NCBI GenBank assembly: GCA_013151835.1
Contig: JAADHK010000019.1
Location: 1,879 to 45,389 of the forward strand
From: Deltaproteobacteria bacterium
GTDB lineage: Bacteria; Desulfobacterota; Desulfobacteria; Desulfobacterales; Desulfosalsimonadaceae
Direction: 5' to 3'
Length of the DNA stretch: 43,511 nucleotides
Shown: one piece after another, positions 15,042 to 41,284 of the stretch
Layout: each line of letters starts with the position of its first letter
How positions within the stretch are numbered: the stretch's first letter is position 1
Position numbers and translations under genes: made by a program
The notes under the pieces: model-generated
Seen by the model: only the letters and a program-made list of their open reading frames with translations
Databases searched by the model: none
What the model was told of the DNA's origin: nothing

Positions 15042-17804
15042 ATGGAAAAGCGATATATCATAGGAATAGATCTGGGAACCACAAATTGCGCCGCAGCCTT
15101 TGTTGAGCTTAAGGAAAAAGAGGAAGACGGCCATGACATAAGACTTTTTAAAATTCCCCAGGTTACGGGTCCGGGAGAAGTCACATCCCGTTTTGTTCTT
15201 CCTTCTTTTTGCTATATCCCCGGCAAATATGACCTCCCTGCCGGGGCCGGCGAACTGCCCTGGAAAGACACTCATGAAATAATCACGGGCGCATGGGCAA
15301 GGGATCATGGCTCAAAGGTTCCTGCCCGGCAGGTATCATCGGCCAAGTCCTGGCTCTGTCACGATAACGCCGACAGGCGTGCAAAGATTCTACCCTGGGG
15401 TGTGGACGACGGGGTTGACAAAATATCTCCGGTTACGGCAACAGCGGCATATCTGCGGCATATACGCCAGGCATGGAATTACTCGATGGCACGTGACGAT
15501 GATGACGCGGTGTTTGAGAGGCAGCACATCATCATAACCGTGCCGGCATCCTTTGATGAGGTGGCCCGGGATCTGACAATGGAAGCCGCAAAAATGGCCG
15601 GGCTGTCAAATATTATCCTCCTGGAAGAACCCCTCGCGGCCTTTTATTCCTGGATATCCAGGCACGAAGACAACTGGCGCGAATTTGTCCGGCCCGGCGA
15701 ACTGGTGCTGGTATGCGATGTGGGCGGCGGAACCACTGACTTTACACTTATCGCCCTTGTGGAAGCCGATGGCTCTCCCAGGTTTGAACGGATCGCCGTG
15801 GGCGACCACCTTATCCTCGGGGGGGATAATATCGACCTTGCCCTTGCAAGGCTTTGCGTTGCAAAATTTGCGGGGACGGCATCCCTTGACAGGGACAAGT
15901 GGCAGACCCTCTGTCATTTGTGCAGAAACGCAAAGGAGCGAATCCTTTCGGGAAAAGCTGAGACCGAGACCATAACCCTGGTGGGCGGGGGCACTCGTCT
16001 TGTGGGCGGCACCCTTACTGCGACACTTAAACGCCGTGAGATCGATGAGATCGTAATCAACGGATTTTTTCCTCTCCTGGCCCGGGAATCTGGTGCCGAC
16101 CCCACTACGCGTAAGGGGATATCCGAATTCGGGCTACCCTATGAGTCCGAGCCGGCCATTCCCCGTCATATCGGCAGATTCCTGGACCGGCATTTGTCGG
16201 ATATCCAAAACTTCCGCACGGAAAAGGACGCCTTTCCGGACTGCATCCTTTTTAACGGCGGCTCCCTTTCTCCCCAAAGCATCAGGAGTCGTGTCTGCGA
16301 GTCCATCCGCCATTGGTTTCAAAAACCGGGCGATGCCGGACCACGCGTACTTGAAACCCGGTCTCTTGATCTTGCCGTGGCATACGGCGCTGCATACTAC
16401 GGCCTGGTGCGTGAGGGAATAGGGGTCAGAGTCGGAAGTGGCAGCCCGAGATCGTATTACCTCGGCGTGGCCCTGGAAGGTGAGTCTGAAAGAGATGTTG
16501 ACCGGGCGGTCTGTCTGGTGGAACGTGGTCTTGATGAGGGGTCAAGGATACGGCTTGATGAGCACGGTTTTACGGTAATCGCCAATCAGCCCGTGAGTTT
16601 TGATCTTTTCAGTTCCAGTTTCCGGGCAGGTGATCGTTCGGGTGATCTTGTGGCCGTGGATGATTCCATGTCAGGTCTCCCGCCTCTTAATACCGTGATC
16701 CGGTTCGGTAAAAAAGGCGAAAAAAAGAAACTCCCGGTCACGGTCGAAGCCGAGTATACCGAAGCCGGAGTCCTTGAACTCTGGTGCCGGTCGGTTACAA
16801 CGGATCATCGCTGGAAGTTGAGATTCCAGCTAAGGGATATTCCTGGAACAGATCATGTAAAGGATTTTGAGGTTCTGGATGACTCCCTTATCGAGGACGC
16901 CTTGTCTTTACTGGATTTGACCTTTGCCCGAAACACCGAACCAGCAGAACTTTCAGGGCTTGTGAAGTCCATTGCAAGGGCCGTTAAGCGGCCCCGGGAG
17001 AAATGGCCCCTTGCAATGATAAGAAAAATTTCCGACTGCCTGCTTGATCTCATGGAAGCAAGGAAGGTTTCGCCTGACCATGAGATACGCTGGATGAATC
17101 TTTTCGGATTCTGCATGAGGCCGGGGTTTGGCGACGGCCTTGATCCCCAGCGCATTTCCCGTGTGTGGAAAATTTATAAGACCGGCGTGATTTTCAGGAA
17201 AAACCGGCAGGCAGCCAATGAATGGTGGATACTCTGGCGAAGGCTTGCGGGCGGGCTTTCTGCGGGCAGACAGCGTCAGATAGTGCAGGATGCGGGAGCA
17301 CGGCTTGTTCCGGCAAAAGGGGGCAGGGCAGGGGGCCAGGAACGGATTGAAATCTGGATGGCCCTTGCCAACATGGAATTAATATCCGTAAAAGAAAAGA
17401 TGAGATGGGCCGACATACTGGTTTCCGAAATCCAAAAGCCAAAGGCAAAATCCCAGCTTTTCTGGACGCTTTGCCGGATATGCGCACGGGAACTCCTTTA
17501 CGGCCCGGTGGATAGGGTGATCCCCCCGGCCCGGGCGGAAAAATGGATAAGACTCCTTGCAGACGGCAATTGGAAGGATTTTGCTCCCGTGGGCACGGCC
17601 CTTGCCCGGATGTCCCGAAAAACCGGGGACATGGGGCGTGATATCAGTCCGGATATTGCCGACGCAGTCGTGAAGCGTCTTGAACATCACGGCATGGAAG
17701 ACCATGCGCACATGGTAAAATCAATCACACCCATAAAGAAAACCGAGGTCGGCGCCATTTTCGGGGAATCTTTTCCCGCAGGCATCATCCTCCGGGGGGA
17801 GTGA
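15042..17804 (+). CDS. Hsp70-like protein with C-terminal DUF3731-type domain
   Basis: The first 560 residues parallel the upstream gene: IIGIDLGTTNCAAAF, LLEEPLAAFYSWI, CDVGGGTTDFTLI and ILFNGGSLSPQSIR. A further 300-residue, mostly helical C-terminal extension (from about 630) with ANEWWILWRRLAGGLSAGRQ and ELLYGPVDRVIPP corresponds to what is annotated as DUF3731 in DnaK-related proteins. The frame is open from 14937, but that would overlap the previous gene by 95 bases; the ATG at 15042, eleven bases after its stop, begins exactly at the conserved fold (920 residues). The pair looks like a tandem duplication in which one copy kept or gained the extension. Function unknown; a chaperone-like or cell-envelope role with the DUF2760 protein is inference. 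Confidence 0.9.
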   Translation: MEKRYIIGIDLGTTNCAAAFVELKEKEEDGHDIRLFKIPQVTGPGEVTSRFVLPSFCYIPGKYDLPAGAGELPWKDTHEIITGAWARDHGSKVPARQVSSAKSWLCHDNADRRAKILPWGVDDGVDKISPVTATAAYLRHIRQAWNYSMARDDDDAVFERQHIIITVPASFDEVARDLTMEAAKMAGLSNIILLEEPLAAFYSWISRHEDNWREFVRPGELVLVCDVGGGTTDFTLIALVEADGSPRFERIAVGDHLILGGDNIDLALARLCVAKFAGTASLDRDKWQTLCHLCRNAKERILSGKAETETITLVGGGTRLVGGTLTATLKRREIDEIVINGFFPLLARESGADPTTRKGISEFGLPYESEPAIPRHIGRFLDRHLSDIQNFRTEKDAFPDCILFNGGSLSPQSIRSRVCESIRHWFQKPGDAGPRVLETRSLDLAVAYGAAYYGLVREGIGVRVGSGSPRSYYLGVALEGESERDVDRAVCLVERGLDEGSRIRLDEHGFTVIANQPVSFDLFSSSFRAGDRSGDLVAVDDSMSGLPPLNTVIRFGKKGEKKKLPVTVEAEYTEAGVLELWCRSVTTDHRWKLRFQLRDIPGTDHVKDFEVLDDSLIEDALSLLDLTFARNTEPAELSGLVKSIARAVKRPREKWPLAMIRKISDCLLDLMEARKVSPDHEIRWMNLFGFCMRPGFGDGLDPQRISRVWKIYKTGVIFRKNRQAANEWWILWRRLAGGLSAGRQRQIVQDAGARLVPAKGGRAGGQERIEIWMALANMELISVKEKMRWADILVSEIQKPKAKSQLFWTLCRICARELLYGPVDRVIPPARAEKWIRLLADGNWKDFAPVGTALARMSRKTGDMGRDISPDIADAVVKRLEHHGMEDHAHMVKSITPIKKTEVGAIFGESFPAGIILRGE

Positions 17805-28167: not shown

Positions 28168-30063
28168 ATGATTAATCCTGATGAAACCTTGTACGCGAGC
28201 CTCCGGGAAAAGAGCCGTAACGCACCGCCCGGCCCCGGCGTATATATCATGCGCGATTGCCGGGGAAGCGTAATTTACGTCGGTAAAGCCGCATCGCTCA
28301 AAAAAAGACTCGCCTCTTATTTTTCAAACACCTCCCGCCATACTCCCAAGACCGGGATTCTTGTCACTCATATCTTTGATTTCGATACCCTGGTCACGGC
28401 CACCGAGAACGAAGCCCTTATTCTCGAATCAAACCTCATTAAAAAATACAAACCCAAATATAATGTTATCCTGAAGGACGATAAGCGATACCCATCGCTT
28501 AGAATCGATCTTTCGGACGATTATCCCCGCATTTCGGTTGTGCGGCGGATCAAAAACGACGGCGCACTCTATTTCGGTCCCTATGCGTCCGCGGGCGCCG
28601 TCCGGCAGACCCTTAAAATCATCGGCAGGACTTTCAAGCTCCGGAAGTGCCGTTCGGCACGCATGAAACAGAGAAGCCGGCCCTGCCTCAATTACCAGAT
28701 CGGGGCCTGTCTTGGCCCGTGCTGTAGGAATATCGATCCCGATGATTATAAAAAAATCGTGGAAGAGGTCAGAATGTTTTTAAACGGCCACACCTCGGAC
28801 CTGGTAAAAAAAATAGAGCTGGAAATGAATACCGCCGCGGAAAAAGAGGATTTCGAGGATGCGGCGGCTCTCAGGGACAAGATGTTTGCGCTCAGAAAAA
28901 CAATAGAAAAGCAGGTGATTGTTACAAATGATTTTTCAGACAGGGACGTGATCGCCCTTGCCCGGAACAAGGCGGCAACTATTGCAATGATCATGATTGT
29001 TCGCAACGGTTGCCTCTCGGGTAATCTTGATTTTACGTTTGACGCTTCCTTTGCCGAAGACGGCGAAATCCTGTCGGCCTTTGTACGTCATTATTATGCC
29101 ATTTCCGATTATATTCCTTCGGAAATACTTATCGCTTTGGAGATGGAAGATCGGGACCTGTGCGCAGAGTGGCTTTCATTGCGCAGGGGCCGCAAGGTCA
29201 GGCTGATTGTGCCCCGGCGCGGCGACAAGGTGCGCCTGGTATCCATGGCGGTTGAAAATGCAAAAAACCGGCTGTCCCGGCATATGGAGGAATCCGCCGG
29301 GATTAACAGGATTTTTTCCGCATTACTCCATCGGCTCAATCTGAAGAGATTGCCCAATAGAATCGAATGCGTTGATAATTCAGGAATCCAGGGCCAGGAT
29401 ATGGTTTCCGGGCTGGTTGTTTTTGAAAATGGAAAAGAGAAAAAAAAAGATTACAGGCGGTATATCCTGAAAACGGTTTCAGGGCAGGATGATTACGCGG
29501 CCATGCGCGAGGTCCTTACCCGCAGGTTTAAAAAAGGCGGAAATGCGCCTCTGCCTGATCTTCTGATGGTGGACGGTGGAAAAGGACAGCTCAATATCGC
29601 CGTATCGGTTTTGCGCGGGCTGGATCTTGATGGAAAGTTTGCCGTAATAGGGATTGCGAAAAAAGATGAAAAAAAGGGTGAGGAAGACGACAAGATTTTT
29701 ATTTACGGCCGGGCCAATCCGGTTAATTTTTTAAAAGACCGGCATGCCCTTTTTTTTCTGCAAAAAATCCGTGACGAGGCACATCGCTTTGCGATTACCT
29801 TCCACAGGACCCGGAGACGCGGCAGGGCGCTCGGGTCCATGCTTGATAACATCCCCGGGATCGGGCCTAAAAGAAAAGCCTCTATCATGAAGGTCTTTTT
29901 CGGGCCAAAACAGATAACGGCCGCCGGGATCAACGGCCTTGCCTCGCTTCCGTCAATGAATCGGGAAGCGGCTCGGGCAGTGATTCAGGCGTTTGAGACT
30001 GTTTTAAAAGATGAACATCGAACATCGAACGTCCAACGTCCAACATTGAATAATGAATGTTGA
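28168..30063 (+). CDS. uvrC: UvrABC excinuclease subunit C
   Basis: UvrC makes both incisions around the lesion. In the 631 residues the order is normal: GIY-YIG nuclease (GPGVYIMRD and VIYVGKAASLKKRL, residues 22-60), cysteine cluster (CRSARMKQRSRPCLNYQIG then CLGPCC), UVR motif (about 205-240, AEKEDFEDAAALRDKM), RNase H-like nuclease (IECVDNSGIQGQDMVSGLVV and DDYAAMREVL), and a C-terminal double HhH domain (NIPGIGPKRKASIM). The last 17 residues (DEHRTSNVQRPTLNNEC) are encoded by an interspersed repeat and replace or extend the natural end. The start is not strongly marked by a ribosome site. Confidence 0.96.
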   Translation: MINPDETLYASLREKSRNAPPGPGVYIMRDCRGSVIYVGKAASLKKRLASYFSNTSRHTPKTGILVTHIFDFDTLVTATENEALILESNLIKKYKPKYNVILKDDKRYPSLRIDLSDDYPRISVVRRIKNDGALYFGPYASAGAVRQTLKIIGRTFKLRKCRSARMKQRSRPCLNYQIGACLGPCCRNIDPDDYKKIVEEVRMFLNGHTSDLVKKIELEMNTAAEKEDFEDAAALRDKMFALRKTIEKQVIVTNDFSDRDVIALARNKAATIAMIMIVRNGCLSGNLDFTFDASFAEDGEILSAFVRHYYAISDYIPSEILIALEMEDRDLCAEWLSLRRGRKVRLIVPRRGDKVRLVSMAVENAKNRLSRHMEESAGINRIFSALLHRLNLKRLPNRIECVDNSGIQGQDMVSGLVVFENGKEKKKDYRRYILKTVSGQDDYAAMREVLTRRFKKGGNAPLPDLLMVDGGKGQLNIAVSVLRGLDLDGKFAVIGIAKKDEKKGEEDDKIFIYGRANPVNFLKDRHALFFLQKIRDEAHRFAITFHRTRRRGRALGSMLDNIPGIGPKRKASIMKVFFGPKQITAAGINGLASLPSMNREAARAVIQAFETVLKDEHRTSNVQRPTLNNEC

Positions 30064-30069
30064 ATAATA
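30011..30069. repeat. CATCGAACGTT-type short interspersed repeat, copy 2
   Basis: Units GAACATC, GAACATC, GAACGTCC, AACGTCC, AACATTGAATAATG follow in tandem and match the copy at 28043-28082. The copy lies inside the uvrC reading frame and supplies its final codons and stop. Confidence 0.8.
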
Positions 30070-30107
30070 AATATTCATGCTGAGGACTCGGAGAAAGCCA
30101 TTCTATT

Positions 30108-30136
30108 GTCGGATTACGCTTCGCTAATCCGCCCTA
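30108..30136. repeat. GTCGGATTA hairpin repeat, copy a
   Basis: GTCGGATTACGCTTCGC and TAATCCG make a hairpin. The same element recurs at 30287-30312 (opposite orientation) and 31312-31337. Together with the next copy it fills much of the 280-bp gap between uvrC and mdh; the rest shows nothing recognisable. Confidence 0.85.
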
Positions 30137-30282
30137 CTAAGGGCTCACTCAAGAATAACTTCACATTTTAATAAGCCGATGTATCCGGCCTGGCGGTGTT
30201 GCTCGGTGCTTCGACTCCTGAAAAATGTAAATTTATTTTTCCGTGAACCCTAAGGATTGCCTTTGAGGTGACGATATCTTCC

Positions 30283-30314
30283 GTAGGTCGGATTAGCGAA
30301 GCGTAATCCGACAT
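30283..30314. repeat. GTCGGATTA hairpin repeat, copy b (inverted)
   Basis: GTCGGATTA-GCGAAGCG-TAATCCGAC is a perfect 9-base stem. It is the reverse complement of copy a and lies about 30 bases beyond the stop of mdh, where it could terminate or stabilise the mdh transcript. Confidence 0.88.
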
Positions 30315-30343
30315 AAGCCACTATATTATTCGTTACGAGTTCG

Positions 30344-31337
<994 letters not shown>

Positions 31338-31489
31338 AACGGTACCGCCGGCGAATTTGAACCTTTAGGAGCGCGCCTATGCGGGCTTGCAAAGCCGTTG
31401 ACTTTCTTTATGAGTCCGTTATTATCTTCCAGGAGTCAATAAAAAAGAGGATGATTGAGCAATGGATTGCTTTTTTGCCAAAAAATACC

Positions 31490-31520
31490 TTGAGATAATA
31501 GTCAATATTAGATATTGACT
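31490..31520 (+). promoter_or_regulatory. Candidate promoter with palindromic operator for the GTPase operon
   Basis: AGTCAATA-TTAGA-TATTGACT (31500-31520) is a perfect 8-base inverted repeat. TTGAGA (31490-31495) and TATTGA (31513-31518) form a possible sigma70 promoter with a 17-base spacer, so the palindrome covers spacer and -10 region as an operator would. The TPR gene starts 77 bases downstream. Confidence 0.5.
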
Positions 31521-31596
31521 GTTTTTAAGCTCAGATCACGAATAAGAACCTATTATCCGGCTAACAAATATTGTATTCATTATAGAGGCTGTTTCA

Positions 31597-32517
31597 ATGA
31601 CGTTTGGTGAAAAAATAAAAGCCCTTTTGCAGGAGGCGGAACTCTACCGGGGTCAGGGCCTTTTAAACGAGGCGCTTGAGAAATTTAAATCGATTGAAAA
31701 ATTCATACAAAAGGCCCCCAAACTTAAAAACCGGGATAAAATTTTATCCAAGATTGCGGTGAAAAAGAAGGCGATTTCCGCTGAGATTAAAAATTTCAGA
31801 AAGCCCAAAAAAGCCCCAAGGGTTTCTGATAAAGCCCGGGAACTTATGAAAGGGATGTTTGAGGCCGGGGATCCCAAAACCAAAGGTTCGGCCGCTCTTG
31901 GAGGAGCCATTTCGCTAAAAGGCTTTGGCCAGTACGACAAGGCGATAAAGGAATTTACTACCCTTCTTGCCTTTGACCCTTTCCGGCTCGACGCAGCCGG
32001 GCATATCCTTGATTGTCTTATGGATGATTCCGGCCCTGATGCGGCGATTTCCCGTTTTAAGGAGTGGCTTTCCGACACTGCCTTTACGTCCGGGGAGCTG
32101 GATAAAATTCGTTCCCGCCTTCAGGCATTGCTGGATAAGGCGGGTGTTAAGAAGGATGTTTCCGGTTTGCAGGCAGGCCCGTTGCCCGAACCTGATTCGG
32201 AAGTCGATGAAGATGACATTCTGGATATCAACTCCATCCGTTTCAAACTCGCCAAGGGCGCTCAAAAAGGTGAGGAAATAGAGCTTGACGTTAATTACCA
32301 GTCCGGATGTGTGCTTAATGTGATTGTATCCAAAAAAGAAAAAGGCGTCATAGAAGGAATAAAAACCGGAGATATGATGAACGACATCGTATTTTACTCG
32401 CCGGTTGCAATTTTTTCCGGCACCGGATATGTTTCTGATATGACCGGAATAAAGTCCGGCCCTAAAAAAGGTGATTACAGCCTGAGCGTGAAAATCATCC
32501 GGATTCTGACCGGATAG
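31597..32517 (+). CDS. TPR-type protein with C-terminal beta domain
   Basis: The 306-residue protein starts with helical, lysine-rich sequence (EAELYRGQGLLNEALEKFKS), then has a TPR-like stretch (GFGQYDKAIKEFTTLLAFDP) and an acidic linker (EPDSEVDEDDILD). The end, EEIELDVNYQSGCVLNVIVS to GDYSLSVKII, looks like a PilZ- or YcgR-like small barrel; this is a guess from pattern. It is cytoplasmic (no signal). It lies 70 bases upstream of the MglA-type GTPase gene and is probably its partner. GAGG nine bases before the ATG. Confidence 0.78.
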   Translation: MTFGEKIKALLQEAELYRGQGLLNEALEKFKSIEKFIQKAPKLKNRDKILSKIAVKKKAISAEIKNFRKPKKAPRVSDKARELMKGMFEAGDPKTKGSAALGGAISLKGFGQYDKAIKEFTTLLAFDPFRLDAAGHILDCLMDDSGPDAAISRFKEWLSDTAFTSGELDKIRSRLQALLDKAGVKKDVSGLQAGPLPEPDSEVDEDDILDINSIRFKLAKGAQKGEEIELDVNYQSGCVLNVIVSKKEKGVIEGIKTGDMMNDIVFYSPVAIFSGTGYVSDMTGIKSGPKKGDYSLSVKIIRILTG

Positions 32518-32587
32518 ATAATTGAAAATGTTTGCTGAATCTGAATGCAGGCCGATTTGGATGAATAAAGTCGCGGGGTAATAATTT

Positions 32588-33202
32588 ATGGCCGTAATTA
32601 ATCTGAAAAACCGGGAAATCGAATGTAAAATCGTCTACTACGGACCCGGAAGGTGCGGCAAGACAACCAATCTGGAGTATATTCACAAGGCATTCAAGCG
32701 CCAGGTAACAGGTGAAATGATTTCCATTGATACTGATGGTGACCGCACGCTCTTTTTTGATTTTCTTCCACTTGGACTCGGGAAAATAAAGGGTTGCGAT
32801 GTCAAGGTCCAGCTCTATACGGTTCCGGGCCAGGTGCAGTACCGTTCCACCCGTAAACTAGTGCTGAAAGGGGCGGATGCCATCATTTTTGTAGCGGATT
32901 CGTTGAAGGTCAGGCGTGAGAAGAATATGATTTCTTTAAAGGACCTCCATGGAAACCTAAAAGAAACGGGGATAAGTATTTTAAAGATACCCCTTGTGCT
33001 GCAATTTAATAAGCGGGATCTTGCAAGCAAAGGCTTCCCGCTCATGTCGACCGACCAAATGAATAAAGAACTGAACCGTCAGTTGAAAGCCCCGACATTT
33101 GAAGCAAGCGCCCTATCCGGAGACGGTGTCGGGGCGACTTTGACAAAGTGCATGAAGCTCACATTGCAGCATCTTCAGAAAGAATTCAAATGGGCGCAAT
33201 AG
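32588..33202 (+). CDS. MglA-type Ras-like GTPase
   Basis: A 204-residue small GTPase: P-loop YYGPGRCGKTTN, switch region DGDRTLFFDFLPL, G3-like TVPGQVQYRSTRK and G4 LQFNKRDL. In MglA the usual G3 aspartate is replaced by threonine, and here TVPGQ shows the same change. MglA proteins set polarity of motility or secretion machines and are controlled by MglB roadblock proteins; no MglB is present in this window. It stands between a TPR gene and a DUF4388 gene, only 7 bases from the latter. Confidence 0.92.
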   Translation: MAVINLKNREIECKIVYYGPGRCGKTTNLEYIHKAFKRQVTGEMISIDTDGDRTLFFDFLPLGLGKIKGCDVKVQLYTVPGQVQYRSTRKLVLKGADAIIFVADSLKVRREKNMISLKDLHGNLKETGISILKIPLVLQFNKRDLASKGFPLMSTDQMNKELNRQLKAPTFEASALSGDGVGATLTKCMKLTLQHLQKEFKWAQ

Positions 33203-33209
33203 GAAACCA

Positions 33210-34382
33210 ATGACATCCAATGTCGTTTTACGTGGCAGCCTGGCTTTTGTGGGACTAGGGGAATTGCTCCAGCAACTGGGCGGGAACAACAGCACCGGTG
33301 TGCTTAAGCTCGTCAGTCCTTTTGCGGACTCACCCGGCCTTGTTTTCATAAAAGACGGCAATCCCGTTAACGCGGAATTTAATTCCCTGGTGGGGATAGA
33401 GGCGCTGAATACTTTTTTTGGGTGGAATGAGGCTGAATTTGAATTTCTGAATGAACCGGTTACCTGCGACAGGCTCATAAAAAAAGGGAGGATGGAAATC
33501 ATCCTGGACGGCCTCCGCATGCTTGATGACGGATTGATCAAGCGACTGGGGCCCGAGAGTGGAAATGCACCGCCTCCTGCTACGGCTTCCGACGGCTCCG
33601 GTCTTCCCGTCATCAAAGGCCCGCTTATAGATTATGTTTATGTGGTTGATGAAGAGGAATTCGCCGACGGGACCGAGATTGTCGCGCAGGACCGGTTCGG
33701 CAACTGGTTCTGGGTCATTTTGAGCGGGACCGTGAAAATAATCCGCATAATGCCCGAGGGAACGGCGCCCATTGTCAAGCTTTCTGACGGAGCATTTATC
33801 GGAAGTATTATATCTTTCCTTCGCCAGGGAAACATCCGGAGCGCAACGGTCGAGGCGGAGGGTAATGTCGTCCTCGGTGTTCTCGATTCGGAACTTATTG
33901 CCCATGAATATACGAATCTATCCGACAACCTGCAGAACCTCCTGATCTCAATGGACAAGCGTATGAAGCAGGTTACCAACCTTTGTGCGGGAGTTATCCT
34001 TAAGCAGGATGTTTTAGCGGATAAGCCTGGAAACATGAAACTTCATATCGCACCCGAGGTAAACGAAGAAACCGTATTTAAGATAATTGCGGGAGAAGCG
34101 CGTATTTTCAGGGAAGCGGACAACGCATTCCTTCCGCTCTGCACGTTGGGACCCGGTGATTTTATCGGTAATATCGAGTTTTTAAATACCCCCCATGAAC
34201 CCTATTCGGCAATGGCCTTTGTTTCAGAAGATTTCGAGGGCGAAGAGTTTGACCTTTCGGAGGTGCGTAAAGAGTTTGATAAGCTTTCAAATACATTTAA
34301 AAATATGGTCAACAACCTGATGGCGGGTGTCTCGGTCACGACCGGCCGCATTCTGGACCTTGTAAAGAAAAAGCCTGATTAA
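33210..34382 (+). CDS. DUF4388 (PATAN-type) protein with two cNMP-binding-like folds
   Basis: Residues 1-115 (VLRGSLAFVGLGELLQQLGG, TGVLKLV, GLVFIKDGNPVNAEF) form a DUF4388/PATAN domain, a signalling module common in deltaproteobacteria. After a linker, two beta-roll regions follow: about 145-235 (WFWVILSGTVKIIRIMPEG, SDGAFIGSIISFL) and about 270-355 (ETVFKIIAGEARIFREAD, LGPGDFIGNIEFLNTP). Both look like cyclic-nucleotide-binding folds but lack the PRAATV cassette arginine, so the ligand is open. AGGA five bases before the ATG. Gap to the GTPase gene is 7 bases: one operon. Confidence 0.85.
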   Translation: MTSNVVLRGSLAFVGLGELLQQLGGNNSTGVLKLVSPFADSPGLVFIKDGNPVNAEFNSLVGIEALNTFFGWNEAEFEFLNEPVTCDRLIKKGRMEIILDGLRMLDDGLIKRLGPESGNAPPPATASDGSGLPVIKGPLIDYVYVVDEEEFADGTEIVAQDRFGNWFWVILSGTVKIIRIMPEGTAPIVKLSDGAFIGSIISFLRQGNIRSATVEAEGNVVLGVLDSELIAHEYTNLSDNLQNLLISMDKRMKQVTNLCAGVILKQDVLADKPGNMKLHIAPEVNEETVFKIIAGEARIFREADNAFLPLCTLGPGDFIGNIEFLNTPHEPYSAMAFVSEDFEGEEFDLSEVRKEFDKLSNTFKNMVNNLMAGVSVTTGRILDLVKKKPD

Positions 34383-34423
34383 CATCCGCAGGCAATTTAA
34401 TTCTTTCAGGGTTCATAAAACCG

Positions 34424-34452
34424 TTGAATATAAGATTGCAATATTATATAAG
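34424..34452 (+). promoter_or_regulatory. Candidate promoter for the PilZ gene
   Basis: TTGAAT (34424-34429) and TATAAG (34447-34452) are 17 bases apart in an AT-rich stretch, 66 bases before the PilZ start. The PilZ gene may thus have its own promoter in addition to read-through from the operon. Confidence 0.35.
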
Positions 34453-34517
34453 CTTAAAAGGGCCTGCTTACTGGTCCGGATTAGCTGCAACAAAGGGATA
34501 ACAAGGAGCCGACTAGT

Positions 34518-34874
34518 ATGGAAAAAAACAACAAAAGAAGGGCCACCCGCTACGACTCTCTCAACCTGCTCTCCTATGTTTGTATAGATTCGGATGGGAA
34601 AGAATGGAAACAGGGGATGGGCAGGACTTTGAATATCAGTGAGTCGGGCATAATGCTTGAAACCCATGAACCGATTGAAACCAAGTATCTTCTCATGCTC
34701 TCACTCGGGATTGAGGATAATGTCGTTGATATCAAGGGGGAGGTTGTTTATTGCAACCGGGGCGAGATCGAAGGAAGGTTTGAATCCGGAATTGCGTTCG
34801 GGGAAGTCAATAGCCCGGAAGCCTTGGAAGCTTTAAATCGCTTTATCGAGGCCTTTGACAAGCAGTATGGATAA
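34518..34874 (+). CDS. PilZ-domain protein
   Basis: A 118-residue single-domain protein with both cyclic-di-GMP binding motifs of PilZ: RxxxR as RRATR at residues 7-11 and (D/N)xSxxG as NISESG about residue 38. The binding residues are intact, so it should bind c-di-GMP. It follows the MglA-type GTPase and DUF4388 genes, suggesting that the cluster links c-di-GMP with a polarity or motility output (inference). AGGAG lies ten bases upstream of the ATG. Confidence 0.9.
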   Translation: MEKNNKRRATRYDSLNLLSYVCIDSDGKEWKQGMGRTLNISESGIMLETHEPIETKYLLMLSLGIEDNVVDIKGEVVYCNRGEIEGRFESGIAFGEVNSPEALEALNRFIEAFDKQYG

Positions 34875-34990: not shown

Positions 34991-35887
34991 ATGCTTAAAC
35001 CATTGCATGAAACTCGATTTTCAGGCATTCCCCTCCTTAAGCAGGGAAAAGTCCGCGACATCTATGACCTTGGCGACACTATCCTGATTGTTGCAACAGA
35101 CCGGATTTCAGCCTTTGACGTCATAATGGCGGAACCCATCCCCGGCAAGGGAAAGATACTTACGGCAATTTCCCTTTTCTGGTTTGACGTAATGGAGAAT
35201 CTGGTACCCAACCACCTTGTCACAAGCGACGTGTCCCAATATCCGGAAGCGTGTCTTCCTTATGCTGAAATCCTTGCCGGCAGGAGCATGGTAGTCAAAA
35301 AGGCACAGCCCCTCCCCATTGAATGTGTAGTGCGCGGCTATATTTCGGGCTCGGGCTGGAAATCATATCTTGATTCCGGAAAGGTCTGCGGAATTACGCT
35401 CCCGGAAGGGCTCTTGGAGTCGGACCGGCTTTCCGAACCGATATTTACTCCTTCCACCAAGGCGGAACTGGGCGACCATGACATTAACATCACGTTTGAG
35501 GCGGCCGCCGATATTATCGGCAGGGAGCTTGCTGAAAAGGTCAGGAAACTGAGCCTTGCCATTTACGATAAGGGAGCGCGACTGGCTGCACAAAAAGGCA
35601 TTATAATCGCCGACACAAAATTCGAGTTTGGTTTTGTCGATGAGCAACTGATACTTATCGACGAAGTGCTGACCCCTGACTCTTCCCGGTTCTGGCCCAA
35701 ATCCGATTATCATCCGGGCGGCCCGCAGAAAAGCTATGATAAACAGTATCTCAGGGATTATCTCGATAGTCTGGAATGGGAAAAGCGGCCTCCGGCCCCG
35801 TCGCTCCCCCCCGAGGTAATTGAAAACACCCGTTTAAAATATCTCGAGGCCCAATCGGCGCTTACCGGCAAAACGGATGAGATTTGA
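34991..35887 (+). CDS. purC: SAICAR synthetase
   Basis: PurC joins aspartate to CAIR in purine synthesis. The 298 residues fit the longer class of the enzyme. Motifs: [15 protein letters not shown] (phosphate loop), [30 protein letters not shown] in order with SGSGWKSYL, and [17 protein letters not shown]. The start has only a weak ribosome site. Its last 11 bases overlap the start of the ParB-like gene, so an important housekeeping gene leads the operon with the ParB-like and SPL-like genes. Confidence 0.96.
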
Positions 35888-36857
35888 CTCGACCCATCTT
35901 GATCCGTCATCAATAGATATTGGCGATGACCGCTACCGTATCACGACCGCGTTGCCGGATAAATCCCTGGGCCGGTCCATATCGCTTGTCGGTCTTTTGC
36001 ATCCCCCGGTCCTTCAGGCCGTTCTTCAGAAAACAACTGCTTCTTATATTGTCGTTTCAGGCTTTAACAGGATAAAGGCCGTTTCCGCCATGGGCTGGAG
36101 CAAGATAGACTGTTTTGTTCTGTCAGGAGATACATCTCCGAAGGACTGCCTTCTTTTTTCCATTGCCGACAATGTTTCCTCCCGGAGTCTGAATCTCCTC
36201 GAACAGGCCAATGCCGTGCGCAAACTTTCCGTTTTTGTGCCGGACAAGATTTTTCTGTGCGCCATGCTTGAAGATATAGGGCTGAACCTTTCCCCCGGAC
36301 TGGTAAGCAAGTATGAAAGGCTGCTTAAGCTGCCCCAAGAGCTTCAGGCTGTTGTAGGCCGGGGTTTGATGCCGCTTGCCGCAGCATTGTCCCTGGAAGG
36401 AATGGATTTACATTCCGTTCACATGATCTGCGGATTGATTGAGCGGCTCCGTCCAGGTACAAACCTGCAGAAGGAAATCCTTTCCCGCTTAAAGGAATTC
36501 GCCGCGCAAAAGGGGATTCCAGTCTCGTCGGTCCTTGAATTGCCGGACGTCTCAGGGATTCTAAACAGCGGTGAAGCAGACCGGAAGGCAATGCTTCAGC
36601 ACTTGCGAAAAGCCTTGCGCAGGCTTTGTTTCCCTTCTCTTTGCGCAATGGAAGATCAGTTTGCCGAATCATTGTCCCGCCTGGAGCTGCCCCCCGGAGT
36701 GCGGTTTGTTTTTCCGGAAGGTTTTGAGGATACCCGGTACAGGCTTGAACTGGAAATAAAGTCTGCGTCCGACATGGAGAATCATGGCTGTTTGATGCAG
36801 GAGATATCTTCCCACCCGGCGCTGCTGGAGATATTTAAACGTGAATTACGGGATTAA
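35877..36857 (+). CDS. ParB-like N-terminal domain protein
   Basis: The 326-residue protein resembles the nucleotide-binding N-terminal domain of ParB/Noc: [15 protein letters not shown], then [18 protein letters not shown], at the place where ParB has its GERRxxA CTP-binding loop (here GFNRIKA, a divergent form). A helical middle part ([20 protein letters not shown]) could hold a helix-turn-helix. The C-terminal part matches nothing I know. It is not next to a parA gene, so chromosome partitioning is unlikely. It overlaps purC by 11 bases and the SPL-like gene by 17 bases, so the three are cotranslated. Confidence 0.78.
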
Positions 36858-37971
36858 ACGGTTATTTGTCGATTCGAGCGTGGCCGGCAGCCCGGTAGCT
36901 GAGGCCATATCAAAAAAAATCGGAATTTTGCCCAGCCTGGTGGACGGACCCGGGCCTGTTTACCGTGCGGTGTCGGAATCCCCGGACCCCGAGGCCGCAG
37001 GAAAAAAAGTGCTGTTTCTCACGAAAAACAGCGGGACATTCATAAAGGACTGCCCGGGCACATCCCATTACACCTGCTGCGGATACCGGATACTTCATAT
37101 CGGCACCTATTGTGTCATGGACTGTTCATATTGCATACTTCAGGCTTATTTTCATCCGCCCGTTCTTCAGTTTTTCGTCAATCACGGGGAGATGAAAAAA
37201 GCGTTGGCCCTGGCGTTTGAAGACAGGCAAATCATGAGGATAGGCACCGGAGAATATACCGACTCCCTGATCTGGGAATCTTTTTATCCGCTTTCAAAAA
37301 CCCTGGTGCCGCTTTTTGCCTCCCAGTCATCCTGCGTCCTTGAATTAAAATCAAAGACAACGGCCATAAAAAATCTTCTTGACCTTGAACATAACCGGAA
37401 AACCATAATGGCCTGGTCCGTAAATACCGGGCGAGTGATACACGATCAAGAGCGTGGGACCACAAGCCTTGAAAACCGGATATTGACCGCAAAAACCTGT
37501 GTGTCTTCAGGATACCCGGTTGCATTTCATTTCGATCCCATGTTAATATATGACGGATGCGAGGATGAGTATATATTTGTTGTGGATTTTATCTTCGACA
37601 ATATCCCCGCCGATGAGATCGTATGGATAAGCATGGGCGCTTTCAGGTTCATGCCTTTATTGAAACCGATACTTGAAAGAAGATTCCCTGCTTCCCGGAT
37701 TGTTTATAATGAATTTGTCCGTGGCATTGACTCTAAAATGAGATATTTCAAGCCCCTGCGCATGCGCCTTTACCGGAGCGTCATTGATCGCATACGGAAG
37801 AGGGCGCCCGATGTTTGTGTATATTTTTGCATGGAAGACGAAGAGGTGTGGGAAAAAACCATGGGCTTTTCGCCTGCCGTTCACGGCGGACTTGCACGCA
37901 TGCTTGATGTAAGTGCAAAAAAACATTGCGGACTTAGCGGGCGGTTTCGCCCCGGACCGATTTCTTACTAA
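36841..37971 (+). CDS. Spore photoproduct lyase-like radical SAM protein
   Basis: The 376-residue protein (GTG start inside the ParB-like gene) is related to spore photoproduct lyase: CPGTSHYTCCGYRILHIGTY followed by CVMDCSYCILQAY, with the iron-sulfur cysteines at 91, 95 and 98 in CxxxCxxC, the same numbering as in B. subtilis SplB from memory. Later segments (FVNHGEMKKAL, ELKSKTTAIKNLL, WSVNTGRVIHDQERGTTSLE, YPVAFHFDPMLIYDG) also follow the SPL layout. The place of the hydrogen-donor Cys141 (EASCTSD in SplB) reads GTGEYTDS here, with no cysteine, and Tyr99 is replaced by Ile. It may act on another DNA lesion or on RNA; the organism is not expected to sporulate. Confidence 0.88.
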   Translation: MNYGIKRLFVDSSVAGSPVAEAISKKIGILPSLVDGPGPVYRAVSESPDPEAAGKKVLFLTKNSGTFIKDCPGTSHYTCCGYRILHIGTYCVMDCSYCILQAYFHPPVLQFFVNHGEMKKALALAFEDRQIMRIGTGEYTDSLIWESFYPLSKTLVPLFASQSSCVLELKSKTTAIKNLLDLEHNRKTIMAWSVNTGRVIHDQERGTTSLENRILTAKTCVSSGYPVAFHFDPMLIYDGCEDEYIFVVDFIFDNIPADEIVWISMGAFRFMPLLKPILERRFPASRIVYNEFVRGIDSKMRYFKPLRMRLYRSVIDRIRKRAPDVCVYFCMEDEEVWEKTMGFSPAVHGGLARMLDVSAKKHCGLSGRFRPGPISY

Positions 37972-39985: not shown

Positions 39986-41284
39986 ATGCAGATGATAACA
40001 ACGCATCGTGGGACCGATTTTGACGCCCTTGCATCGGTTGTGGCCGCCACCATACTCTATCCCGCCGCCGTGCCCGTTCTGCCCGGAACCCTTAATCCCA
40101 ACGTCAAGGCCTTTCTGTCACTCCACAAGGATGTCTTTGACATGAAAACTGTGAAGGACATTGATTTTTCCCTGATCAAACGCCTTATAATCGTGGACAC
40201 CAACCGGTGGGACAGGCTGGAAAAGGGCAATCTCCTTAAGGAAACCAAAGGCCTTGAAGTCTTTATCTGGGACCACCATGAAAATGAGTCCGACATTGCT
40301 ACATCCTGGGAATGCCGCGAAAAGACCGGCGCAAACATAACCATAATGACCAGGGCGCTGAGAAAGGAGAATAAAAGCATCTCACCCATCCAGGCCACGC
40401 TTTTTCTCTGCGGGCTGTACGAGGATACGGGGAGTCTGAGTTTTACCTCAACAACGGCGGATGATGCATATACCGCCGGATATCTGATCGAAAACAAGGC
40501 CGACCTGAATATCCTGCGTACATTTCTCCAACCGGCATATGGACAGCAGCAAAAGGATGTCCTCTTTACAATGCTTAAAACCGCTGAGCGGAAGCGGATC
40601 AACAATTACAGCGTGAGCGTCAATTGTGTCGAAATCCACGGACATGTATCCAGCCTTTCGCTGGTGGTGCACATGTACCGCGAGATTGTTAATGTGGACG
40701 TCGCCTTCGGGATTTTCGTCTTAAGCGGCGGGGACAAGTGCATTGTCATAGGGCGGAGCAATGTGCCTGAAATCAATGTCGGCTCCATTGTCCGGAGCAT
40801 GGGGGGCGGAGGGAACGACGGAGCGGGTTCGGCAATGCTTAAAGCCGTAAATCAGGATGCCGTCAGAGAGTGGATAGAGGAACTGCTGCGGGGTAACCAG
40901 GAAAGCTCGGTTCACGTGGAGGATATCATGTCATCCCCGGTTTTCTTTGTATCCCAGAAAACATCCATGGGAAATGTCGCACAAATCCTGAAGGAAAAGG
41001 GGTGCACCGGCCTGCCCGTGGTGGATGGCGAAAAGCTTGTGGGCATAATATCAAGGCGGGATTTCAAGAAAATACGAAAGGAATCCCAGCTTGAATCGCC
41101 GGTAAAGGCCTTTATGAATATGCATCCCGTTACCATAACACCTGAAAAAAGTCCCATACACGCCGCAAGAATGATGGTTAAACACGATATCGGCCGGCTT
41201 CCGGTTATGGATAACGGCCGGTTGGCGGGTATTATTTCACGCTCGGACGCCATGCGCTTTTTCTATGACGCTCTTCCGGATTGA
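39986..41284 (+). CDS. DHH phosphoesterase with paired CBS domains
   Basis: The 432-residue protein has a DHH domain: motif I TDFDALAS, motif II VDTN, motif III WDHHENESD and motif IV GLYEDTGSL, and a DHHA1-like end SMGGGGNDGAGSAML. Two CBS domains follow (about 310-365, IMSSPVFFVSQKTSMGNVAQ, and about 370-430, MNMHPVTITPEKSPIHAARM). This is the architecture of the N-terminal half of a long deltaproteobacterial and Aquifex-type tRNA nucleotidyltransferase, but no nucleotidyltransferase domain follows; the protein ends right after the second CBS domain. It may act alone on oligonucleotides or cyclic dinucleotides under adenylate control (inference). Confidence 0.88.
   Translation: MQMITTHRGTDFDALASVVAATILYPAAVPVLPGTLNPNVKAFLSLHKDVFDMKTVKDIDFSLIKRLIIVDTNRWDRLEKGNLLKETKGLEVFIWDHHENESDIATSWECREKTGANITIMTRALRKENKSISPIQATLFLCGLYEDTGSLSFTSTTADDAYTAGYLIENKADLNILRTFLQPAYGQQQKDVLFTMLKTAERKRINNYSVSVNCVEIHGHVSSLSLVVHMYREIVNVDVAFGIFVLSGGDKCIVIGRSNVPEINVGSIVRSMGGGGNDGAGSAMLKAVNQDAVREWIEELLRGNQESSVHVEDIMSSPVFFVSQKTSMGNVAQILKEKGCTGLPVVDGEKLVGIISRRDFKKIRKESQLESPVKAFMNMHPVTITPEKSPIHAARMMVKHDIGRLPVMDNGRLAGIISRSDAMRFFYDALPD

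Follow-up and report, generated by a model that had tools for sequence, protein, structure and literature searches.

We describe here a gene pair located in a 43,511-nucleotide stretch of DNA (the window; positions 1,879 to 45,389 of contig JAADHK010000019.1, assembly GCA_013151835.1) that derives from a Desulfobacterales-type genome of 3.3 Mb (G000). One gene encodes a radical S-adenosylmethionine (SAM) enzyme related to spore photoproduct lyase (SPL), and the gene upstream of it encodes a ParB-like protein, which we refer to as the partner. The pair is co-inherited across much of the phylum, which points to an enzyme system for which we found no earlier description, as our searches of open-licence papers showed no account of an SPL-like/ParB-like pair. 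The coupling of the two genes is real and extends to many of the families in this phylum. The two genes are listed below; the labels G, L, C, and f denote genomes, loci, contigs, and families, respectively.

35877..36857, plus strand: ParB-like partner gene, 326 aa, ATG start (AlphaFold2 model with a predicted local distance difference test [pLDDT] score of 92.6; matches in 55 of 60 relatives)
36841..37971, plus strand: SPL-like radical SAM enzyme gene, 376 aa, GTG start (Pfam SPL, 84 bits; Z 27.7 to the SPL structure 4fhe)

Co-inheritance of the enzyme and partner genes

A match to the enzyme was identified in 57 of 60 relatives and a match to the partner in 55; for relatives with completeness of 90% or more and contamination of 5% or less the counts were 37/37 and 35/37, respectively. 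The five relatives without a partner are exactly the three without an enzyme match (G002, G021, and G035, which are 60, 83, and 76% complete) and two (G052 and G056) that have only a distant SPL relative of 27–32% identity, which is included in the count of 57 and lies, as judged by eye, beside a transposase-like or XRE-like gene. A profile search for the partner in these last two genomes returned matches of the canonical ParB type only, plus a decayed fragment with stops in G052. Both genes were found together at 30 loci from 25 genomes, which all belong to the same family, and there the gap between the frames ranges from −38 to +1 bases with starts set by script. In G030 (contig C29, approximately 16416–17295) broken pieces of both genes lie side by side, as if the pair decays together; these pieces are counted within both the 57 and the 55.

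The association holds in a sample of 247 genomes of the phylum, each at least 90% complete, among which the enzyme was found in 138 and the partner in 130, with both in 124, the enzyme only in 14, the partner only in six, and neither in 103 (Fisher odds ratio 152, p 1.6e-45, a value that overstates the independence of the observations because the genomes are related). This cross-tabulation was based on the best place per genome, with an enzyme match of at least 192 bits and a partner match of approximately 80 bits or more. Weaker enzyme matches were left out in nine of 147 genomes (G061, G082, G085, G156, G175, G193, G227, G265, and G271), as was the partner match of G245 (81.2 bits), which spans only positions 25–179, the canonical ParB part. 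The partner matches that were counted include some covering the C-terminal part only (e.g., G094, G127, G153, G177, and G226) and others covering mainly the N-terminal part (e.g., G117, G143, G209, G229, G248, and G287). Second, weaker copies of the enzyme (104–161 bits) occur in G248, G229, G095, G143, G154, G092, and G066.

Of the six genomes scored for the partner only, five (G087, G158, G196, G280, and G175) carry a pair that is interrupted by, or close to, the end of a contig, and the sixth, G156, has a broken enzyme gene. All 14 genomes with the enzyme only have a gene bearing the C-terminal domain of the partner (the PC domain, described below) directly upstream of the enzyme or, at L211, fused to it. 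In 79 of the 124 genomes with both genes, the partner is directly upstream of the enzyme, on the same strand and no more than 400 bases away. Co-inheritance and adjacency in these two samples rule out that the genes are neighbors by chance. Linkage through purC alone, the gene preceding the partner in the window, is also rejected, because the pair stands beside a glycosyltransferase or other genes elsewhere. A first-pass annotation of the window, made from the sequence alone, had proposed that the two genes are coupled, and our homolog survey extends their association far beyond purC and this lineage, with varied genes upstream.

Domain organization of the partner

Three overlapping regions were recognized in the partner:

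35877..36182, plus strand: ParB/Srx domain, residues 1–102 (VIA-align Z 11.5 to PadC, 97 aligned, root mean square deviation [rmsd] 2.1; GxxR kept, catalytic Glu replaced by Phe63)
36144..36506, plus strand: ParB-type helix-turn-helix (HTH), approximately residues 90–210 (VIA-align Z 7.9 to the Noc DNA-binding domain, range 90–209, 114 aligned, rmsd 2.4)
36369..36854, plus strand: PC domain, residues 165–326 (kept most often; stand-alone or fused elsewhere)

The boundary of the PC domain (~160 residues) is our own, set by splitting the partner profile at residue 165; its best-kept residues are P253 and E284, each present in 116 of 117 sequences. PC is the most often kept part of the partner, and the ParB half is a frequent but dispensable addition. 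Stand-alone PC genes of ~170–200 residues without a ParB match are present at six loci (L210, L219, L220, L221, L223, and L275) in families f82, f63, and f96, and probable stand-alone copies, with an open frame that extends beyond the gene, are present at L207 (f69) and at L208 and L216 (both f82). PC only was also detected at L222 and L224, both of which are cut by contig ends. At L211 (G197) a 504-aa protein has a weak PC match (23.9 bits) ahead of the enzyme in one frame. Judged by these profile matches, three families clearly lack the ParB half and two others (f69 and f91, the latter having the fusion) probably lack it, and some of the 14 genomes scored for the enzyme only keep a weak ParB half (e.g., L206, L209, L212, and L214). 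The stand-alone PC copies had no Pfam match better than E 0.02, and structure matches over residues 253–326 of the partner model were few, with Z below 5.

The ParB half is recognizable by both structure and sequence. Over residues 1–~210 the AlphaFold2 model matches KorB (Z 13.1, 197 aligned, rmsd 5.4), Noc, and ParB, and the profile search gave E 1.7e-20 to Noc; ParB profiles match the partner, all below their cut-offs (e.g., TIGR00180, 32.5 bits versus 58.45). A review (PMC9178275) describes the Q52A and E93A forms of Myxococcus xanthus ParB as hydrolysis-defective. In the partner family the E93 column, the Glu of the GERR motif, is Phe or Tyr in 90 of 109 sequences (F 80, Y 10; the E93A chain itself reads GARR), and the Q52 column, placed by hand from the alignment, is occupied by T (50), R (20), or S (13) among 105. 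Partner residues G62 and R65 are kept in 108/109 and N99 in 96/110. Since G62 and R65 are kept and the Glu of GERR is replaced, the sequences suggest that nucleotide binding by the partner is possible and that hydrolysis of cytidine triphosphate (CTP) is unlikely. The earlier proposal of a ParB-like CTP switch as the essential partner of the enzyme is thus not supported, as the ParB and HTH half is missing in several families in which PC stays, once as a fusion, and neither Q52 nor E93 is kept.

The SPL fold and catalytic residues of the enzyme

The enzyme is an SPL-fold relative and not a classical SPL. Its AlphaFold2 model (pLDDT 85.4, predicted template modeling score 0.86, with residues 294–301 mostly below a pLDDT of 50) aligns over residues 1–331 with SPL 4fhe (308 aligned, target 340, rmsd 3.1), and the best non-SPL family in the fold comparison reached Z 11.5. 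The Pfam SPL profile (PF20903) matches far above its cut-off of 27 bits, and the score to the SPL equivalog TIGR04070 is 90.6 bits versus a cut-off of 400. Residues were counted in 170 distinct family members from the fetched loci, of which L127 does not cover the C71/C79/C80 stretch discussed below. Two features define the active site:

37111..37134, plus strand: radical SAM motif CxxxCxxC (C91 169/169, C95 170/170, C98 170/170)
37252..37254, plus strand: E138 in GTGE, opposite SPL donor Cys141 (E 167, Q 2, D 1 of 170)

The CxxxCxxC motif at residues 91, 95, and 98, noted in the first-pass annotation, is thus kept in every family row that covers it. SPL Cys141 falls opposite Glu138 in three alignments (phmmer, MAFFT, and hhalign), and none of the 170 family members has a cysteine in the donor column. 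The annotation was therefore correct that this position is not a cysteine, although its pairing implied Tyr139 as the aligned residue. Radical SAM enzymes generally hold the amino group of SAM by a GGE motif at the E138 position, so we take GTGE to be the ordinary SAM-binding motif and Cys141 to be a speciality of SPL. SPL Tyr97 is kept (170/170) and Tyr99 is replaced by Ile99, as had been proposed (position 99 is I in 145, V in 12, F in 10, Y in 2, and S in 1 of 170); the Tyr97/Tyr99 relay of SPL is consequently not present in the enzyme. D141, K172, E204, and R213 are kept in all 170. Glu138, Ile99, and the low TIGR04070 score together uphold the initial view that the enzyme is not a classical SPL. 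An SPL-family protein of a Deinococcus plasmid (L273:286-1347) also has Glu at the donor position (YDVGENSD), and loss of Cys141 is therefore not unique to the enzyme family.

In a FastTree tree of 23 proteins rooted on Bacillus SPL, the family groups together, apart from SPL-family proteins of Nostoc, Aureimonas, Granulicella, and Deinococcus, with support of 0.83 without L061 and 0.96 with it. L061:3271-5774 is a distant SPL relative that lacks the C71 cysteine and lies beside a single gene with both XRE and metallopeptidase-like sequence (by eye). A 623-aa frame of Fusobacterium vincentii (L267:1-3597) has a C-terminal SPL-like radical SAM domain and a long N-terminal part that appears nucleosidase-like by eye.

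A predicted auxiliary metal site

The enzyme family has a second set of conserved cysteines:

37051..37080, plus strand: C71 ... C79 C80 (CPGTxxYxCCGY), predicted ligands of an extra metal site (C71 168/169, C79 160/169, C80 168/169)
37828..37830, plus strand: C330 of CME, where the C-terminal extension begins, a candidate for the fourth ligand (168/168 rows covering C330)

The combination C71-C79-C80-C330 is present in 158 of the 170 rows and C71-C73-C80-C330 in eight. The middle cysteine at position 73 occurs in two contexts, CPCT...SC (L186, L187, L195, and L197) and CPC...RC or EC (L211, L243, L209, and L215), so that when it shifts from 79 to 73 the stretch still holds three cysteines. 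Seven SPL-family proteins taken for comparison do not share these extra cysteines. Because this conserved set has a movable middle member and is accompanied by C330, we consider that C71, C79 (or C73), C80, and C330 probably form an auxiliary metal site, most simply a [4Fe-4S] cluster. The statement in the first-pass annotation that the enzyme lacks the donor cysteine is thus true of position 141 and incomplete, because C71, C79, C80, and C330 form a conserved set that it had not seen.

In the MAFFT and hhalign alignments C71 lies opposite Bacillus Ser77, equivalent to Geobacillus Ser76, a residue changed in PDB entry 4rh0, whose title gives the enzyme as C140A/S76C. The predicted site would therefore sit at the SPL pocket, and the enzyme is not entirely devoid of a cysteine close to this pocket. 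A comparable layout is known for LipA, in which three N-terminal cysteines are joined by a fourth ligand in a C-terminal tail that lies over the active site, according to a preprint (PMC13232139). The same preprint states that lipoyl formation by LipA depends on Ser308 and that the S308C variant yields an intermediate and a desaturated product, results that argue against simple sulfur donation by an all-cysteine site.

Proposed function and alternative explanations

We propose that the products of the two genes form a single two-part radical SAM system, in which the SPL-fold enzyme and its partner probably act on nucleic acid in a reaction other than that of SPL, an explanation to which we give an even chance. 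The 376-aa protein is a radical SAM enzyme that combines the SPL fold with a standard motif for the SAM-cleaving cluster and has the Glu of a GGE-like SAM-binding motif in place of the SPL donor Cys; it probably binds a second, auxiliary iron-sulfur (Fe-S) cluster through C71, C79 (or C73), C80, and C330, beside the pocket where SPL binds thymines. The PC domain of the 326-aa partner would work with the enzyme, presumably in a physical complex, and the ParB/Srx domain and ParB-type HTH, carried in most lineages examined, would hold this complex on DNA or other nucleic acid without cycling through CTP hydrolysis as a true ParB does. Its most likely role would be a housekeeping radical reaction on a nucleic-acid base, either repair or modification, in anaerobes; such a reaction is our best guess rather than a finding. 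The genes, their co-inheritance and adjacency, the domain losses and the one fusion, the predicted folds, and the residue conservation are computational results, from which the auxiliary cluster, the complex, a nucleic-acid substrate, and the type of reaction are inferred. To our knowledge, the only activity known for the SPL fold is spore photoproduct repair. More speculatively, the pair may represent a new kind of nucleic-acid system, in which an SPL-fold enzyme whose lesion pocket adjoins an auxiliary Fe-S cluster would be carried by a hydrolysis-dead ParB-fold clamp docked via PC and would make or remove a base modification, as a core function in more than half of the sampled phylum genomes; this fuller version is possible, and we regard it as rather doubtful.

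A separate SPL-fold lineage that has a distinctive cysteine set and is inherited along with a partner, present in 138 of 247 phylum genomes, points to a further conserved radical reaction in these bacteria, and the pair is small and conserved, making the question directly testable by expression or deletion. It also represents a ParB-fold protein tied to an enzyme instead of to chromosome segregation.

Several observations weigh against this proposal. In 45 of the 124 genomes with both genes the two are not adjacent in the expected order, being on the same contig in 13 (including G097, where they are 18 bases apart in reversed order) and on different contigs in 32. The genome G052 is without an intact partner but encodes a distant relative of the enzyme (L060, 198.6 bits) that falls inside the family in the tree, and the pairing is thus not without exception. 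This relative (L060:4596-5861) has the extra cysteines and GTGQ in place of GTGE. The partner also evolves faster than the enzyme, their identities to the window proteins being 19–35 and 48–59%, respectively. DNA binding by the partner is a prediction, and since the ParB/HTH half is absent in some families, recruitment to DNA by this half is not essential. The PC domain itself is matched at only 22–25 bits in L241 and L244, and in L246 it was not found alone, although the whole profile aligns over 7–308 and the ParB half is strong; at these loci the ParB half is the clearer of the two. With respect to the auxiliary site, L225 keeps C330 and lacks C71, C79, and C80, and the closeness of C330 to C71/C79/C80 that such a site would need is a prediction. 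Lastly, the neighboring genes (purC, glycosyltransferase, SDR, and HDOD) give no pointer to DNA.

An alternative explanation is that the enzyme acts on a target other than DNA (RNA, protein, or a small molecule), with the ParB/Srx half as a leftover scaffold or nucleotide sensor and PC as a subunit or substrate carrier. That several families keep PC and the enzyme without the ParB or HTH half is consistent with this explanation, as are the metabolic or surface genes in the neighborhood, such as the family-2 glycosyltransferase, and the generic nature of the SAM-binding motif. We consider it unlikely, if still a serious competitor, as a DNA-lesion enzyme has by far the most similar fold among solved structures, and the window partner, like most examined, keeps its ParB half.

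An improbable alternative is that the enzyme is a true photoproduct-type DNA repair lyase whose donor has moved, with C71 replacing Cys141. This would account for the position of C71 opposite the serine changed in 4rh0, which may be where the donor of Clostridium-type SPLs lies; C74 of the Clostridium acetobutylicum SPL may be the equivalent of Geobacillus S76. The C. acetobutylicum enzyme is described in PMC5368176 as using this other cysteine, C74. A metal site nevertheless fits better, because C71 belongs to a three-cysteine set with a movable middle member, plus C330; moreover, Tyr99 is replaced and the TIGR04070 score is far from that of an SPL.

That the partner is a diverged chromosome or plasmid partition ParB, located by chance beside a repair gene, is scarcely credible despite its ParB fold and profile similarity, as a canonical parB with a parA-like gene (the latter read by eye) is located on another contig of the host genome (C126), no parS-like site was found in the window at up to three mismatches, and the partner is co-inherited with the enzyme in 124/247 genomes; chromosome partitioning is ruled out on the first two of these grounds. 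The absence of a nearby parA, as first annotated, was confirmed, with no ParA family among the eleven genes scanned at 28.2 to 41.3 kb of the window.

Genomic context

The pair is preceded in the window by a gene that we consider outside the system:

34991..35887, plus strand: purC, SAICAR synthetase (Pfam SAICAR_synt, 258.6 bits)

The three open frames run in the same direction, and the overlaps given in the first-pass annotation, 11 bases between purC and the partner gene and 17 between the partner and enzyme genes, agree with them. Ahead of purC (28168–34874) are uvrC and genes for a malate/lactate dehydrogenase-like protein, a TPR protein, a Ras/Arf-like GTPase, a cNMP-binding and DUF4388 protein, and a PilZ protein. 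Elsewhere in the order, other families have the last four of these genes along with purC and the partner. A DHH-family phosphoesterase with two CBS domains is encoded two genes downstream of the pair (39986–41284). The partner is still found after purC in most cases within the order, with the enzyme ~0.7 to 17 kb distant in some of its other families.

In 40 loci (L206–L245), for which neighbors were identified by simple gene calls with Pfam run on one member per cluster and the others assigned by similarity, the gene next upstream of the partner is a family-2 glycosyltransferase in 13, purC in five, and another gene in the rest. The glycosyltransferase loci (L206, L207, L208, L209, L210, L212, L216, L217, L223, L228, L229, L232, and L239) are all outside the Desulfobacterales, and the same glycosyltransferase adjoins the enzyme in L255 and the partner in L263. 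Relatives with names (the best 80 of 417, all close) are mostly Desulfobacteraceae, Desulfobacterales, and "Deltaproteobacteria".

Four plasmid records have relatives with 23–27% identity over 53–65% of the protein. A role as a defense system was rejected, as PADLOC gave no match for the enzyme and only a weak methyltransferase match (E 0.019) on the partner. Among the matches listed (the first 50) from a viral fold library, the partner matched mainly ParB proteins and the enzyme had two unnamed matches with E < 0.001. In PHROGs the partner matched ParB-like and unnamed families, and no family was found for the enzyme or stand-alone PC. No viral contigs were found with the window enzyme as query, a search that reaches close relatives only.

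Comparison with known systems

The enzyme resembles SPL (SplB; PF20903, TIGR04070; 4fhe) in its fold, its CxxxCxxC motif, Tyr97, and the Lys172 and Ser193 columns. It differs in having Glu138 for Cys141, Ile99 for Tyr99, the extra C71/C79/C80/C330, a C-terminal extension of ~45 residues, and a PC-bearing partner. With LipA (5exj) it shares a radical SAM barrel, three cysteines before the radical SAM motif, and one conserved C-terminal candidate for a fourth ligand. The fold match to LipA is middling (Z 11.5, rmsd 3.7, 233 aligned) and no LipA was among the sequence-profile matches of the enzyme. In place of the CX4CX5C motif and RSSY tail of LipA, the enzyme has CX7CC (or CX1CX6C) and CME, with Cys rather than Ser at the fourth position, so that the layout alone is alike.

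The partner resembles the CTPase clamps ParB, Noc, and KorB in its ParB/Srx domain and HTH, with GxxR and Asn99 mostly kept, and differs from them in lacking the Glu of GERR, in having no ParA neighbor that we could find, and in its C-terminal domain, PC. The SOS operons described in PMC3765255, in which SplB-like photolyases are associated with ImuB-C or DUF4130, are similar in that an SPL-like radical SAM enzyme is located near small partner domains; here the partner domain is PC, which has no Pfam match, and the word "ParB" does not occur in the main text of that paper. The pairing of a ParB-superfamily protein with a nucleic-acid modifying Fe-S enzyme has a counterpart in DndB and other ParB-superfamily partners of DNA-modification enzymes, as outlined in PMC10853773.

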